A stretch of DNA of 64,000 nt from assembly GCF_030408575.1 (NCBI RefSeq), contig NZ_CP047047.1, positions 1,971,991-2,035,990 of the forward strand, read 5' to 3'. A program made the translations under genes and the position numbers. The notes under the pieces are model-generated. The model was not told where the DNA came from and did no database searches. It saw nothing but the letters and a program-made list of their open reading frames with translations. The stretch is from Corynebacterium auris. GTDB taxonomy: Bacteria > Actinomycetota > Actinomycetes > Mycobacteriales > Mycobacteriaceae. This document shows, piece after piece, positions 55,346 through 62,929 of the stretch. How positions within the stretch are numbered: position 1 is the stretch's first letter; each line of letters starts with the position of its first letter.

Positions 55346-56470
55346 CTAGACGAGCTGCTTGCGGCCGAAGTGGAAGGCCGCCGCGCCGAGCACCACGGCG
55401 ATGAGCAGGCCGATCAGCCCCTTGGCCACGCCGTTGACGCCGGTTTCGGCGCTGATCCCGCGCGCCTGCTCGGCGGTCGGGGTGACCTCGAGCGCCTGGC
55501 GCTGCACCTCGTTGCGGTTGCTGCTCAGCAGGTTCTCGGAGGAGGCGCGCTCCTCCGCGGTCGGCGTGGAACTAGTGCGCGCCGAGCTGGTGACGTAGGT
55601 GCGCCCGTCGTTGTTGAGGTAGTAGTAGATCCCGCCGAGGAGCAGGACGGCGGGCAAGGCGATGAGCGCGAGGCGCTCGATTTCAACGCTGGCCTCGACG
55701 CCGCCGCCGTTGGAGGAGCCGCCGACAACGTCGGAGGCGGCGCCGCCCAAGGTCTCGAAGCTGGAGCCGCCGCTGGCGGGCTGGCCCGTCCTGGCCTCGC
55801 GCTCGACGGAGTTTTCCACGTTGATGGAGGAGCCCGGCAGGCTGGAGCCCTGGGCGAGCACGACGTTGATGGGCAGGGAGCGGCCCAGCTGGCGCGCGAA
55901 GTCAAGGGTGAGCATGACGCCGGCCTGGCCCTCCGCGACGGTCTGGTTGATCAGGTCGCGCGAGTTGACCACGAAGTTGATGTCGCGGTTGTAGAACCAC
56001 TGCTGGCCCTCGAGCTCTCCGGCGAGCCCGCCAACCGAGGCGAAGGGCAGCAGCTCGCGCGCGGCGTCGGCGGCGGCGCTGCTCCCGGCGCTGCTGCCCA
56101 CCTGCTGGGAGCCGCTGTCCGGTGCCGCGTAGCCGGCCGCCTGAGCGAAGGCCTCGATGGTCATGACACCCTCGGTCAGCTCGGCCACGTCAGCGTTGAC
56201 GTTCTCGCGGTTGTCCACGACGTGCTCGCCGTCCGCGTGGTAGTACCACTCCGCCCCCTCCAATGTGCCGGCCACCGCGCCGACCTCCCACTGGTTCAGC
56301 GGGGGCAGGTTTTCGGCTTCCCCTGACCCGCCGGCGGCGCCGCTGCTGCCGGCGGCGGCGCTGCTTCCACTGCTGCCCACCGCGGATTCTGCGTGGGCGG
56401 CGGGGGCGACGTTGAGGGCCAGGGCGCCAGCGAGCGCCAGGGCGGGGACTGTCACGGCAATCTTCTTCAT
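55346..56470 (-). CDS. Secreted repeat protein A with AETG C-terminal sorting-like signal
   Basis: A surface protein of 374 aa, unknown in name. The signal peptide ends AAHA-E near residue 26, followed by a Ser/Gly/Ala-rich spacer. Three copies of an aromatic repeat are seen: EWYYHADGEHVVDNR, QQWFYNRDINFVVNSRD and GIYYYLNNDGRTYV. The third is preceded by a hydrophobic LIALPAVLLLGG. The C-terminus (from residue 337) reads RGISAETGVN, then a membrane helix and GRKQLV, a layout like a sortase signal with AETG at 341-344. The C-terminal third is paralogous to the protein at 57491-58192, and a class F-like sortase gene lies between them. I infer covalent anchoring or surface display. Confidence 0.75.
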   Translation of the reverse strand: MKKIAVTVPALALAGALALNVAPAAHAESAVGSSGSSAAAGSSGAAGGSGEAENLPPLNQWEVGAVAGTLEGAEWYYHADGEHVVDNRENVNADVAELTEGVMTIEAFAQAAGYAAPDSGSQQVGSSAGSSAAADAARELLPFASVGGLAGELEGQQWFYNRDINFVVNSRDLINQTVAEGQAGVMLTLDFARQLGRSLPINVVLAQGSSLPGSSINVENSVEREARTGQPASGGSSFETLGGAASDVVGGSSNGGGVEASVEIERLALIALPAVLLLGGIYYYLNNDGRTYVTSSARTSSTPTAEERASSENLLSSNRNEVQRQALEVTPTAEQARGISAETGVNGVAKGLIGLLIAVVLGAAAFHFGRKQLV

Positions 56471-56630
56471 GGGAACCTCCAGGGCTGGTGTGGGCGCCCC
56501 CACCATGCATCAAGTCTCAAGTGAGGGTTTAGAGTCTACTTCACTGTAGCTTAGCGCCACATAAATCACACACGACACACGAGTCACATGCGTAACGCCC
56601 CCTTTTTGGGGGTGACAGGCATAGCAAAAC

Positions 56631-56665
56631 GCCCCTCGCCCCCGTGCTGCACGGGGGCGAGGGGC
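56631..56665 (-). terminator. Intrinsic terminator of the sortase gene
   Basis: A perfect 16-bp stem (GCCCCTCGCCCCCGTG with its complement) and a 3-base loop, followed by GTTTTG on the minus strand, 23 bp past the sortase stop. It separates the sortase from repeat protein A. Confidence 0.9.
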
Positions 56666-56688
56666 GGAAAAAGCGCCGGTAGCGGGGA

Positions 56689-57459
56689 CTAATCGCCCAT
56701 GTTCGCGGCGACCTGCTCGTCGCTGACAACGCGCTCGAAGCGCCAGCCCACCACGGCGTTGTGCACCGACTGCGCGAGGGGGTTGGCCGGCTGGACGCAG
56801 CTGATGGTCAGCAGGCGGCCGGGCGTTGCGCCCTCGCCCCAGATGGCGGAGTCCTCGGCCAGACCCTCCTTTTGCGGGGCGTGGAGGTCGGTGGCCACGT
56901 AGGTGAGCCAGTCGCCGCCGGAGGCTTCGGTGCGCACGTATAGGACATCGCCGACGGAGACGTTGTGGCGGTCCTTCTTGCCGTCGTAAAGCGAGTCGAA
57001 GACCGCGGAGATACCGGTGCCCGTATGCCCCGCGGTGACCACCACGTCCGGGGCGTTCGTGCCGGGTAGCGAGTAGGGGCGATCGGGCGCGGTGTAGGCG
57101 CAGGCCTCTTTCAGGGTTGCGGGGTCGATCACGCCGTCGACGACGCGGCAGTCCTCCTCCTCGAAGGGGGCGCGCAGGCCGATGGCGGGGATCGCGAGCT
57201 CGACGGGGCGACTCGGCGGGATGTCCGTCTTTGCGGGGGGCGCGATGGGGGCCGGGCGCGTCGGCGTGGGCGGCGGCGCGGGTGCGGGCTCTGCGGCTGA
57301 GGTAGCGGCCGCGGGCGCGGCCTCCTGCGGCGCCGAGCCCCCTCCCCCGCCGCAGGCGCGCGCGAGGAGCAACACGGCAAGCAGCACGAGGGCGAGGGCG
57401 CCGGCCCGGCGCGCCCAGAACACCCAGGGGGCGGGGCGCTGCGAATCAGACACGGGCAT
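56689..57459 (-). CDS. Class F-like sortase
   Basis: A transpeptidase of 256 aa anchored by an N-terminal helix (AGALALVLLAVLLLARAC, near 19-36), followed by an Ala/Pro-rich spacer. The catalytic His is in TAGHTGTG (His145), the Cys in LLTISCVQP (Cys221), and the Arg in GWRFERV (Arg240 or 243). The short core and LTISC motif suit class E/F sortases of actinobacteria, which attach proteins to the wall or act as housekeeping enzymes. It lies 31 bp downstream of repeat protein B and upstream of repeat protein A, both on the same strand. Those two proteins are its likely substrates. Confidence 0.85.
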   Translation of the reverse strand: MPVSDSQRPAPWVFWARRAGALALVLLAVLLLARACGGGGGSAPQEAAPAAATSAAEPAPAPPPTPTRPAPIAPPAKTDIPPSRPVELAIPAIGLRAPFEEEDCRVVDGVIDPATLKEACAYTAPDRPYSLPGTNAPDVVVTAGHTGTGISAVFDSLYDGKKDRHNVSVGDVLYVRTEASGGDWLTYVATDLHAPQKEGLAEDSAIWGEGATPGRLLTISCVQPANPLAQSVHNAVVGWRFERVVSDEQVAANMGD

Positions 57460-57490
57460 AAACAGTACCGGGCCCCGGGGCCGCGAGGGG

Positions 57491-58192
57491 CTAAATCAGG
57501 CGGCGTCGCCCGTAGGCGAACACCGCGGCGCCGAGGGCGGAGGCGACGAGCAGGGCGGCGAGGCCCTGGGCCACGGCGTTGGAGCCGGTCTCGGCGCCGA
57601 TGCCGCGGGGGGCGGGGTCGGCGGCGGCGTTGTGCGTCACCTGCACGTTGGGCGCTTCGGTGGCGGGGTCCTCCGCGCCGGCCTCTGCCTCGGCGATGCC
57701 CTGGCGCCCGGCCTCGGCGCCGTGCTGCGCGAGCAGCGCGTTCGAGGCCTCGATCTCCTCGGCGGTGGGTTCGGCGTCGATGCGCTCCATGTCCGCGACG
57801 TAGGTCTTGCCGTCCTTGTTCAGGTAGTACGTCGTGCCCTCGACTCTAAACACGGAGGGCAGGGCGATCAGGCCGTTGGCCACCTGGTGCGGGGACTCGG
57901 GGTCGACGTCCCCCTTCGACAGCGGGGCCTCGGCCGGCTCCGACGGCTCCACCAGACCCGCCTCGGCCGCATCCTCGACGGCCACGGACTTCTCGCGGGT
58001 GTCGCGGTCGAGCTGCTCGAAGGGGGTGCCCACGGAGTCCGGGTCAGGCACGTAGTGCGTGCCTTCCTCGTTGAGGTAGTAGGTCTCGCCGGTTTCGGCG
58101 GTCGCCTGGGCGGGCTGGGCGTGCGCGGCGGGGGCGGTGGCGATCGCCCCGACCAGGGTCGCTGCCGCGATGAACGTGCGGGTGCGCTTCAT
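57491..58192 (-). CDS. Secreted repeat protein B with AETG C-terminal sorting-like signal
   Basis: A surface protein of 233 aa. The signal peptide ends AAHA-Q near residue 25. Two repeats are seen: ETYYLNEEGTHYVPDPD and TTYYLNKDGKTYVADME. After the second repeat PTAEEIEASNALL runs parallel to PTAEERASSENLL in protein A. The C-terminus from residue 196 is RGIGAETGSN, a membrane helix, and the basic end GRRRLI, with AETG at 200-203. A good ribosome site (AAGGAG) precedes the ATG. The sortase gene follows within 31 bp, implying one transcript. Confidence 0.78.
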   Translation of the reverse strand: MKRTRTFIAAATLVGAIATAPAAHAQPAQATAETGETYYLNEEGTHYVPDPDSVGTPFEQLDRDTREKSVAVEDAAEAGLVEPSEPAEAPLSKGDVDPESPHQVANGLIALPSVFRVEGTTYYLNKDGKTYVADMERIDAEPTAEEIEASNALLAQHGAEAGRQGIAEAEAGAEDPATEAPNVQVTHNAAADPAPRGIGAETGSNAVAQGLAALLVASALGAAVFAYGRRRLI

Positions 58193-58293
58193 TGTCTCGT
58201 CTCCTTGCGCGTACGTCGAACTGTAAAGTCTCAATCGCAACTTTAGCCTTATTCTGCCACGTTGACGAGCGCCACGCCTGTAACATTTCCCTC

Positions 58294-59146: not shown

Positions 59147-62100
59147 ATGTCTGACGTCGATAAGCTCCTTCGAAGCCACCTCGCACCGCCCCCGCGCACG
59201 CTTATCGACGTCCTCCAGGCCACCGCACAGGCCCACCCCGACGCGGCGGCCATCGACGACGGCGAGGTAATCACCTACGCCGAGCTCATCGAACGCGTCC
59301 GGGAGGTCGCGGCGGGGCTGCACCGCGCGGGCATGCGCCGCGGCGACCGCATCGGGGTGCGCATGACCTCGGGGACGCGCGATCTCTACCTCGCCATCCT
59401 GGGCACGATGTGGGCCGGCTGCGCCTACGTGCCCGTCGACGCCGACGACCCCGACGAGCGCGCCGAGATCGTCTTCGGGCAGGCCGGAATCAACGGTATC
59501 TTCACCGACGAGGGCTTCCGCGCCCTCACCCCGCCCCACGCGGGCGACACCGAGCTGCCCGGCGTGGGCGACGACTGCTGGATCATCTTCACCTCCGGCT
59601 CCACCGGCACCCCGAAGGGCGTGGCCGTCACCCACCGCAGCGCCGCCGCCTTCGTCGACGCCGAGGCCCGCCTGTTCTGCCGGGATGAGCCGCTCGGCCC
59701 CGAGGACCGGGTGCTCGCCGGCCTTTCCGTCGCCTTCGACGCCTCCTGCGAGGAGATGTGGCTGGCCTGGGGCCACGGCGCCTGCCTCGTGCCCGCGCCG
59801 CGCTCGCTGGTGCGCTCCGGGCAGGACCTGGGGCCGTGGCTGATCCGGCGCGACATCTCCGTGGTGTCCACGGTGCCCACGCTCGCCGGGCTGTGGCCGG
59901 CGGAGGCGCTGGACAACGTGCGCCTGCTCATCGTCGGCGGCGAGGCCTGCTCGCAGGAGCTCGTGGACCGCCTGGCCACCCCGGAGCGCGAGATGTGGAA
60001 CACCTACGGGCCCACCGAGGCCACCGTGGTCGCCTCCGCCGCGCGGCTCTACCCCGGCGAGCCCGTCACCATCGGCTGGGCGCTCGACGGCTGGGACCTG
60101 GCAGTCGACGGCAGCGAGCTGGTCATCGGCGGTGTCGGCCTGGCCCGCTACCTCGACCCCGCCAAGGACGCCGAGAAGTACGCCCCGCTGGGCGACTGGG
60201 AGCGCGCCTACCGCACCGGCGACAATGTCCGCGTCACCGACACCGGCCTCGCCTTCATCGGCCGCGCCGACGACCAGGTGAAGATCGGCGGGCGGCGCAT
60301 CGAGCTCGGCGAAGTGGAGGCCAACGTGGCCTCGCTGCCCAGGGTGTACAACTCGGCCGTGGCCGTGCAGACCACCGGCGCCGGCGACAAGGTGCTCGTC
60401 GGCTACGTCAGCCTGGAGGACCCGGAGCGCGAATGGGACATCGCCGCCGCCCGCGAGCGCCTCGGCGAGCTCATGCCCGCCGCCCTCGTGCCGCGCCTGC
60501 ACGTCATGGACGAGCTGCCGGTGCGCACCTCCGGCAAGGTGGACAAGAAGGCGCTGCCGTGGCCACTGCCCGCCGCAGCCGAGATCGCCGGCATGACGCA
60601 GACGGAGGCCTGGCTGGCCGGGGTGTGGCTCGACGTGCTCGGCGCGCCGGTGGAATCGCGCGACGCGGACTTCTTCGCCCTCGGCGGCTCCTCGCTGGCC
60701 GCCGCCACCCTGGTGGCCCGGCTGCGCGAGCGCGTGCCCACCATCGCGGTGCGCGACCTCTACGACCACCCCCGCCTCGAGGCGCTGGCCGAATACATCG
60801 ACTCCGTGGACACACAACCGGCGGCCCCGGCGCGCGAGCGCACCGTCGCCCCCGTCGGCGCGGGCACCCGCGCCGCGCAGACCCTCATCCAAGTGCCGGT
60901 GATGACCCTGCAGGCCGCCACCTACGTCACGTGGTGGGCGATCGCGGCCACGGCGCTCGGGCTGGTCCAGCTCGACTGGGTGGCGCTCGCCGTCGCCTTC
61001 GTGGTGCTGTGCACCCCGCTGGGGCGCCTGCACATCGGCGCGCTCGGCGCGCGGCTGATCCGCGGGCGCATCGCCCCGGGCGAGTACCCACGCGGCGGGC
61101 GCACCCACCTGCGGCTGTGGGCGGCGGAGCGGTGGATCCAGGCCTCCGGCGCGCTCAACATCTCCGGCTCGACGTGGGTGGCCTACATCGCGCGCCTGCT
61201 CGGCGCCACCGTCGGCCGGGGCGTGGACATGCACACGCTGCCGCCGACGACGGGCCTGCTCACCCTCGGCGCGGGCGCGGCGATCGAGCAGGAAGTGGAC
61301 CTCACCGGCTACTGGCTCGACGGCGACACCCTGCGGGTCGGCGAGGTCTCCATCGGCGCGGACGCGCGCGTCGGGGCGCGCTCGACGCTCATGCCGGGCA
61401 CGCGCATCCACGCCGGGGCGCACGTGGAGGCCGGCTCGACGGTCACCGGCGACAAGGCCGTGAAGAAGGGCGCGCGCTGGGCGGGCTCGCCGGCGCGCAA
61501 GGTGGGCCGCTCCAAGCACCGCTTCCCGGACCACCGCCCGGCGCGGCGGCCCTGGTGGGTATGGACCTACGCGCTGACGGCGCTGGGCCTGGCCCTCATG
61601 CCCGTGGCCGCGGGCGCCCTCGGCATTGCCGCGGTGCTCGCGCTGGTCGCCGCGACCGGCGGGCACCCGGCCGTCGGCGCGCTGCTCTTCGCGCCCGTTG
61701 GAGGGGTGGTCTACCTCGGGGCGTCGATAGTGATGACGTGGCTGGGCGTGCGCGTGCTCTCGCGCGGCATCCACCCGGGGGTCGCGCCGGTGCGCTCGGC
61801 CCAGGGGTGGAAGCTGTGGACGGTCACACGCCTGCTTGACGACGCCCGCACCCGCCTGTTCCCCCTCTACGCCGGCGCGTTGACCCCGGCGTGGCTGCGC
61901 TCGCTCGGCGCGCGGGTGGGCCGCGACGCCGAGATCTCCACCGCCGTCATGGTGCCTCGCCTGACCACCGTGAAGGACGGCGCCTTCCTCGCCGACGACA
62001 CCCTCGTGGGCACCTACGAGCTCGGCCACGGCTGGGTGCGCACCGCCGAGACCACCGTGGGCAAGCGCGCCTTCGTAGGCAACTCCGGCATCACCGGCCC

Positions 62101-62929
62101 GGGCCGCAAACTGGCCAAGAACTCCCTGGTGGCGGTGCTGTCGTCGACGCCGAAGAAGTCGAAGGCCGGCTCGAACTGGTGGGGCTCGCCGCCCGAGCGG
62201 ATGCGCCGCGTCGAGGTCGAAACCGACGGCGGCGAGGCGCTGACGTACCGGCCGAGCGCGAGCGTGAAACGCAAGCGCGGCGTCGTGGAGACGATGCGCC
62301 TGCTCGCCCCCATGGGCCACGCCATGATCGTCGCGGCCTTCCTCGTCGGCGTGCACTACGCGCTGGTCCACCTCGCTTTCTGGGCGTACGCGCTCGGCGG
62401 CCTCATCTTCATGGCGTGCGGCGCCGCCGCCGTCGCCATGGCGTGCGTGGCCAAGTGGGTGTGCGTGGGCGCGCACCGGCCCGGCGATCACCCGCTCTAC
62501 AGCTGGTTCGTCTGGCTCAACGAGCTCCAAGACCAGTTCATCGAGCTCGTCGCCGCCCCGTGGTTTTTCAACCACTCCTACGGCACCGGCGAGATGAACA
62601 TGGCCCTGCGCACCCTCGGCGTCCGCGTCGGCCGCGGCGCGTGGATCGAGTCCTACTGGTTCCCCGAAACAGACCTGTGCAGCGTCGGTGCCGGCGCCAG
62701 CGTTGGCCCCGGCACCGTGGTGCAGACGCACCTGTTCCAGGACCGCGTGATGAGCCTGGACACCGTCACCATCGAGGCCGGGGCGACCCTCGCCGCCCAC
62801 TCGGTCGCGCTGCCCGCCTCCACCATCGGCGAAGGCGCCAGCGTGCGCCCGGGCTCGCTGCTCATGCGCGGCGACCAGGTCCCCGCGGGCACGCAGTGGC
62901 AGGGCAACCCCATCGAGCCTGTGGGCTGA
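59147..62929 (+). CDS. Pls/PosA-type membrane nonribosomal peptide synthetase
   Basis: A protein of 1260 aa with single-module architecture. The adenylation domain covers residues about 10-470 (FTSGSTGTPKGVAVTH near 149, FDASCEEMWLAWGHG near 197, NTYGPTEATV near 286, and the final catalytic Lys in VRTSGKVDKKAL near 465). A carrier domain has LGGSSLAAATL near 514 (phosphopantetheine Ser). Then come six or so membrane helices that separate three left-handed beta-helix-like soluble domains (near 720-780, 930-1020 and 1165-1255). This is the A-T-TM layout of epsilon-poly-lysine synthetase (Pls) and its relatives. It probably links one amino acid into a short homopolymer. The substrate is unknown. 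TATCCT lies 7 nt before the ATG. Confidence 0.9.
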   Translation: MSDVDKLLRSHLAPPPRTLIDVLQATAQAHPDAAAIDDGEVITYAELIERVREVAAGLHRAGMRRGDRIGVRMTSGTRDLYLAILGTMWAGCAYVPVDADDPDERAEIVFGQAGINGIFTDEGFRALTPPHAGDTELPGVGDDCWIIFTSGSTGTPKGVAVTHRSAAAFVDAEARLFCRDEPLGPEDRVLAGLSVAFDASCEEMWLAWGHGACLVPAPRSLVRSGQDLGPWLIRRDISVVSTVPTLAGLWPAEALDNVRLLIVGGEACSQELVDRLATPEREMWNTYGPTEATVVASAARLYPGEPVTIGWALDGWDLAVDGSELVIGGVGLARYLDPAKDAEKYAPLGDWERAYRTGDNVRVTDTGLAFIGRADDQVKIGGRRIELGEVEANVASLPRVYNSAVAVQTTGAGDKVLVGYVSLEDPEREWDIAAARERLGELMPAALVPRLHVMDELPVRTSGKVDKKALPWPLPAAAEIAGMTQTEAWLAGVWLDVLGAPVESRDADFFALGGSSLAAATLVARLRERVPTIAVRDLYDHPRLEALAEYIDSVDTQPAAPARERTVAPVGAGTRAAQTLIQVPVMTLQAATYVTWWAIAATALGLVQLDWVALAVAFVVLCTPLGRLHIGALGARLIRGRIAPGEYPRGGRTHLRLWAAERWIQASGALNISGSTWVAYIARLLGATVGRGVDMHTLPPTTGLLTLGAGAAIEQEVDLTGYWLDGDTLRVGEVSIGADARVGARSTLMPGTRIHAGAHVEAGSTVTGDKAVKKGARWAGSPARKVGRSKHRFPDHRPARRPWWVWTYALTALGLALMPVAAGALGIAAVLALVAATGGHPAVGALLFAPVGGVVYLGASIVMTWLGVRVLSRGIHPGVAPVRSAQGWKLWTVTRLLDDARTRLFPLYAGALTPAWLRSLGARVGRDAEISTAVMVPRLTTVKDGAFLADDTLVGTYELGHGWVRTAETTVGKRAFVGNSGITGPGRKLAKNSLVAVLSSTPKKSKAGSNWWGSPPERMRRVEVETDGGEALTYRPSASVKRKRGVVETMRLLAPMGHAMIVAAFLVGVHYALVHLAFWAYALGGLIFMACGAAAVAMACVAKWVCVGAHRPGDHPLYSWFVWLNELQDQFIELVAAPWFFNHSYGTGEMNMALRTLGVRVGRGAWIESYWFPETDLCSVGAGASVGPGTVVQTHLFQDRVMSLDTVTIEAGATLAAHSVALPASTIGEGASVRPGSLLMRGDQVPAGTQWQGNPIEPVG

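Follow-up and report, generated by a model that had tools for sequence, protein, structure and literature searches.

A divergent corynebacterial sortase between two proteins with matching tails points to a dedicated anchoring system

Which proteins does a sortase serve when its neighbours share a C-terminal tail other than LPxTG? A 64,000-nucleotide stretch of Corynebacterium auris DNA (hereafter the window; NZ_CP047047.1, positions 1,971,991-2,035,990 of a 2.44 Mb chromosome) raises this question, because a divergent sortase gene lies there between the genes for two proteins, A and B, that carry signal peptides and closely similar tails. We favour, at a probability of roughly 0.78, a dedicated sortase that cuts its own two substrates, A and B, between Thr and Gly of the tail motif and fixes them to the wall; the cut site, acceptor and location we infer by analogy. 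Support comes from the predicted fold, the conserved His and Cys, co-occurrence and neighbourhood across the genus, the loss of tails where the enzyme is dead, and the matching divergence of enzyme and tail. The main features are as follows, in window coordinates.

57491-58192, minus strand: protein B, 233 residues; signal peptide, two small YYLN..YV modules, long helix, unstructured linker, sorting tail; has homologues
57494-57607, minus strand: C-terminal 38 residues of B; RGIGAETGSN, helix, GRRRLI end; motif RGIGAETG at 57584-57607
56689-57459, minus strand: divergent sortase, 256 residues; N-terminal helix at residues 11-36, sortase barrel at about 84-256
57025-57027, minus strand: codon of His145, catalytic by conservation
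56797-56799, minus strand: codon of Cys221, catalytic by conservation
56758-56763, minus strand: His233-Asn234, the site of Arg in other sortases, with either of the two as its exact equivalent
55346-56470, minus strand: protein A, 374 residues; signal peptide, YY/FY..VV modules, one YYLNNDGRTYV module, sorting tail; has homologues
55349-55462, minus strand: C-terminal 38 residues of A; RGISAETGVN, helix, GRKQLV end; motif RGISAETG at 55439-55462

A and B end in the same kind of tail

A preliminary description of this locus had placed the three genes on one strand and had aligned the last 38 residues of A and B without gaps. Both observations hold: the genes run B, sortase, A on the minus strand, and the ungapped alignment is reproduced. 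Each tail shows a motif, a hydrophobic helix and a basic end, in that order, at the very C-terminus; in the predicted model of B the helix spans residues 206-232. Neither tail contains the LPxTG pentapeptide (the equivalents are SAETG and GAETG), and neither is among the 12 matches of PF00746 (Gram_pos_anchor) in the C. auris genome at E <= 10. A 14-row tail profile, in which the A and B tails are themselves rows, matched these two alone in the same genome at E <= 0.01 (5.4e-23 and 7.2e-22).

The signal is broader than AETG, the motif first proposed. We collected 114 unique tails from the fetched stretches with the pattern RGxxAxTG, which itself imposes R, G, A, T and G and leaves the other positions free. 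The third motif position is M in 44 tails, I in 39, V in 19 and L in 9; the fourth is most often A (32) or S (27), followed by E (13), L (12), N (12) and G (10); the sixth is E in 75, Q in 14, S in 8, A in 8, N in 5 and R in 4. After TG comes mostly S (75) and then, in 108 tails, N. The signal is better written RG-[MIVL]-x-A-[E/Q/S/A/N/R]-T-G-x-N. One clear tail, RGETFETG in G173, falls outside the search pattern; the G191 tail and the second G058 tail fall inside it and resemble ordinary signals (G numbers are our labels for genomes, L numbers for the loci or stretches examined).

Sortase and tail co-occur across the genus

We surveyed 242 Corynebacterium genomes with a sortase profile (E <= 0.001) and the tail profile (E <= 0.01, with strong tails at E <= 1e-5). 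The sortase family is present in 108 genomes and a tail match in 108, a different set. All 94 genomes with a strong tail also have the sortase, and none of the 134 genomes without the sortase has a strong tail; the preliminary description had named this co-occurrence as its own test, and the outcome favours it. Since enzyme and tail go together across the genus, the survey points to a dedicated anchoring system overlooked by standard searches, and it uncovers surface proteins of skin and clinical corynebacteria that LPxTG and LAxTG searches miss. Named records with the sortase include C. striatum, C. jeikeium and C. tuberculostearicum; of the 46 sortase loci in all named records, 38 have a tail in the DNA examined, and the eight without one comprise two dead copies and others that include contig ends, second copies and fragments.

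Weak tails (E > 1e-5) occur in 14 genomes. Four of these have RGVPARTG tails adjoining the sortase (G069, G070, G168 and G237), and ten have no sortase. The matches read in three of the ten are LAETG (G035), LASTG (G191) and a match away from the C-terminus (G169); those in G041, G056, G102, G112, G196, G205 and G214 were left unread.

Could the class E housekeeping sortase instead be the one that serves these tails, as degenerate forms of LAxTG, with the adjacent enzyme incidental or devoted to another target? C. auris does encode a class E sortase, as do 92 of the 94 strong-tail genomes; Ala-x-Thr-Gly is common to both signals, and Leu stands before Ala in 12 of the 114 unique tails, as it does directly in the LAxTG tails of other proteins. 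Most tails, however, carry A, S, E, N or G immediately ahead of the Ala, which is preceded by RG-[MIVL]-x. The distribution of tails also tracks the new sortase, not class E. The class E model NF033747 matches 212 of the 242 genomes (203 at 1e-30), yet none of the 102 that carry class E without the new sortase has a strong tail. Conversely, at 1e-30 no class E match turns up in six genomes that hold both the tail and the new sortase, among them G240 with its four tail matches (genomes not named in search listings, such as G240 for class E, were taken as unmatched). We therefore consider service by class E unlikely.

Tails disappear with the active site and diverge with the enzyme

An RGxx(A/F)xTG tail is present in 101 of the 102 sortase genomes with intact His and Cys. 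In the six genomes that hold only dead copies, we found no tail at E <= 0.01 and no RGxx(A/F)xTG tail among the checked neighbours, which strengthens the tie between sortase and tail; as not all six are without class E, it also argues against the class E alternative. The lesions differ: His is replaced by Asn and Cys lost in G010; His by Gln and Cys by Ala in G186 and G223; His by Gln, with an end upstream of Cys, in G101; and the frame is broken ahead of Cys in G143 and G144. Such natural dead copies without tails make the sortase-tail link testable by comparison. Several relatives without His and Cys still have long open frames (L167, L169, L173, L119:9077-9844; G186, G223, G010 and the second copy of G229) and could possibly be pseudo-sortases kept for another role.

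Enzyme and tail also diverge together. For 109 sortase copies, including the dead second copy of G229, we took the nearest tail no more than 2,500 bases away as the partner; sortase and tail distances then correlate at 0.756 with no correction for the species tree, and the highest value in 2,000 shuffles was 0.119. Genomes with more than one copy allowed 15 comparisons, of which the true pairing won 7, tied 8 and lost none. Four of the seven better pairings may be one event, because G079, G091, G095 and G187 look alike, each with RGVEAETGSN adjoining the first sortase and RGM(N/S)ASTGV adjoining the second.

A predicted sortase fold with a variable arginine site

The window enzyme is predicted to adopt the sortase beta-barrel fold. 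His145 and Cys221 lie where the preliminary description had put them and are invariant across 78 aligned relatives. The catalytic Arg it had added is missing: at the head of beta8 the window protein has His233-Asn234, with Arg at 233 in most relatives. A joint alignment of classes C, E and F with the window family admits either 233 or 234 as the equivalent of that Arg, because its class C and E rows are poorly aligned around beta8.

This substitution invites the reading that the window sortase is an impaired copy, with Arg lost and A and B still held in the membrane. The available text of PMC13257024 describes sortases of all classes as His-Cys-Arg enzymes and reports that other sortases become inactive when this Arg is mutated. 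Within the family, however, position 233 is Arg in 88 of the 118 copies with the other key residues intact and something else in 30, and all genomes that supply those 30, G226 aside, fall in the tail-bearing set. Position 234 is Asn in 122 of 130 copies, and class F proteins of the order have no Arg at this site in 27 of 27 read. An impaired enzyme is therefore quite improbable, and a family with a variable Arg site that nevertheless retains its substrates would put the His-Cys-Arg rule to the test.

The label 'class F-like' given earlier has little behind it: class F (NF033748) is the best-scoring sortase model for the window protein, at 18.5 bits against a cut-off of 166. The class E model and PF04203 (the Pfam sortase family) leave it unmatched at E <= 1, and a PF04203 search of the C. 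auris genome finds three other sortases without it. Ten relatives compared with NCBIfam gave class F in three (E 0.0046-0.046) and class E in one (0.061), all far below the cut-offs; compared with Pfam, they matched no sortase model. Profile comparisons were likewise weak, with class F (49 percent, E 1.7e-4) and with the class E and one class C sortase of C. auris (15 and 40 percent probability). A phmmer search found no relative of solved structure, and TonB, suggested by a profile search, was rejected as a chance match (E 0.45).

Like the window protein, class F lacks Arg at the beta8 head. It differs in its signature: where class F of the order reads LxL(I/V)TCGG, the window family reads GRLLTISCxQP (LLTISCVQP in the window) and adds two further invariant cysteines, C104 and C120. 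Some relatives are already named 'sortase' or 'class F sortase' in source databases, so the enzyme has been guessed at before. Our literature searches found no description of this sortase family or its tail signal, and none for AETGSN; unlike the enzyme, its partner signal is thus without any mention that we found.

Outside the genus, a search of 298 genomes of the order returned three matches from Corynebacterium itself and eleven others at or below 52 bits. We treated L254, a record with a Micromonospora title, as likely contamination: over 5 kb it matches a Corynebacterium stretch at 97 percent identity. A distant relative at 52 bits from another family of the order (L186:246-2076) lies downstream of a secreted-looking protein ending in LRSETGGDTG, a helix and RSRR. 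Somewhat short of even odds, in our judgement, is the wider proposal of a distinct sortase class that, within the genomes sampled, is strong in Corynebacterium alone. Its members would work without the catalytic Arg, using His and Cys with Asn at the near-invariant site next door, and would recognise a signal of their own, RG-[MIVL]-x-A-x-T-G-x-N, with every copy fitted to the substrate beside it.

Two further sortase groups were seen along the way. Another Corynebacterium group (L193-L198), present in 8 of 61 genomes, reaches 61-80 bits with the class F model without passing its cut-off; the L193 member lies downstream of a repeat-rich protein. Among class F loci of the order, of which we read 27 of a sample of 30 (L199-L228), 13 have a same-strand neighbour that ends in a helix and basic end after a Gly-rich signal (such as GGAETGAGST, GSASTGGGST or GGAQAGAGG..DTG), counted with no control set. 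True class F sortases may have private signals too. In the available parts of the reports, the class F sortase of C. acnes is said to recognise LPXTG (PMC13257024), and deletion of all four class F sortases of Actinoplanes missouriensis caused no visible change (PMC13251363).

Proposed fate of A and B

In sortases generally, the active-site Cys attacks the Thr-Gly bond and an amine resolves the acyl enzyme. By this scheme A and B would be exported through their signal peptides and kept in the membrane by the C-terminal helix and basic end. The membrane-bound sortase would find RG-[MIVL]-x-A-[E/Q]-T-G-x-N immediately outside the membrane and attack its Thr-Gly bond through Cys221, and the new C-terminal Thr would pass to an amine, most likely that of a cell-wall precursor, leaving both proteins attached to the wall.

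The sortase might instead join its substrates to each other in a pilus-like fibre, for example a chain of B units with A at one end. One sortase is flanked by two different substrates, as in pilus loci, and B has four lysines before its cut site, two of them within YYLNKDGKTYV. A tells against it. Its four lysines, at 14, 15, 362 and 383 of the 386-residue open reading frame, leave none between the signal peptide and the presumed cut site after residue 355, so mature A could only end a chain. Polymerisation, which had been suggested for both proteins, is thus unlikely through side chains of A, and wall linkage is the simplest reading. Lysine number and place also vary among the few A and B relatives compared (the C. 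timonense relative of A has eight), and C. auris has pilus-type loci elsewhere, with class C sortases. We rate a fibre as very unlikely. Two such class C-type loci, L001 and L003, encode pilin-like proteins with LPATG (L001) and LASTG (L001, L003) ends.

A and B resemble each other beyond the tail as well, in a YYLNxDGxTYV stretch and the part that follows, both of which can be aligned. A pattern search finds the shared YYLN motif in 71 of 128 candidate substrates, and we rejected it as a universal substrate rule. The predicted model of B has a mean predicted local distance difference test score of 76.1 and a predicted template modelling score of 0.40; a fold search with it returned no match at E <= 0.001.

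Several observations weigh against a dedicated anchoring system. At the enzyme, neither 233 nor 234 is Arg, so the usual site is without it. In A, an inner hydrophobic stretch (LALIALPAVLLLGG) can be read as a second membrane span; its counterpart in B is milder and appears as short strands in the model, and we take the stretch, with modest confidence, for a domain core. Among genomes, an RGQLASTG tail occurs in G191 without any sortase, though it has the look of an ordinary LASTG signal; for G226, where both copies keep His and Cys, we found no tail; in five genomes (e.g. G001, G175, G151, G142, G171) the nearest tail is at least 3.5 kb away or on another contig or stretch; and of the two sortase copies in C. 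striatum (G211), one is without a tail in the stretch that holds it (L074). The dead copies probably amount to about three lineages, as a LASTG neighbour is common to G101, G143 and G144 and LPQTG neighbours to G186 and G223. Because all counts share ancestry, the Fisher p-values of co-occurrence, which ignore kinship, overstate independence.

A known parallel is SrtB with AbpA in oral streptococci (PMC4974636): judging by the available part of that report, one sortase likewise sits beside a substrate whose signal is other than LPxTG. The sortase class and genus differ, and anchoring was shown there by experiment, whereas here it is inferred. If our proposal is right, the C. auris pair would offer a new private tag and enzyme for protein ligation.

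Surroundings of the locus

One further feature lies between the sortase gene and A.

56630-56666, minus strand: terminator-like hairpin, 17 pairs then TTTT, from a sequence scan

Two such hairpins were observed in the region against 1.8 expected in shuffles. The longest open reading frames of B and A are 57491-58240 and 55346-56506, with likely starts at 58192 and 56470; the start of B explains the right edge, 58192, of the locus as first delimited. The closest named relatives of the locus proteins are from C. timonense. By our reading of the open reading frames, the flanks appear to hold housekeeping-type genes. A rhodanese (Pfam match) adjoins B; because it and the next gene are each present in 41 of 110 fetched stretches, the genomic place is partly conserved. 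Beside the locus, at 59147-62929 on the plus strand, open reading frame inspection alone suggests a 1260-residue protein with an adenylation-like start, membrane spans and acyltransferase-like repeats.
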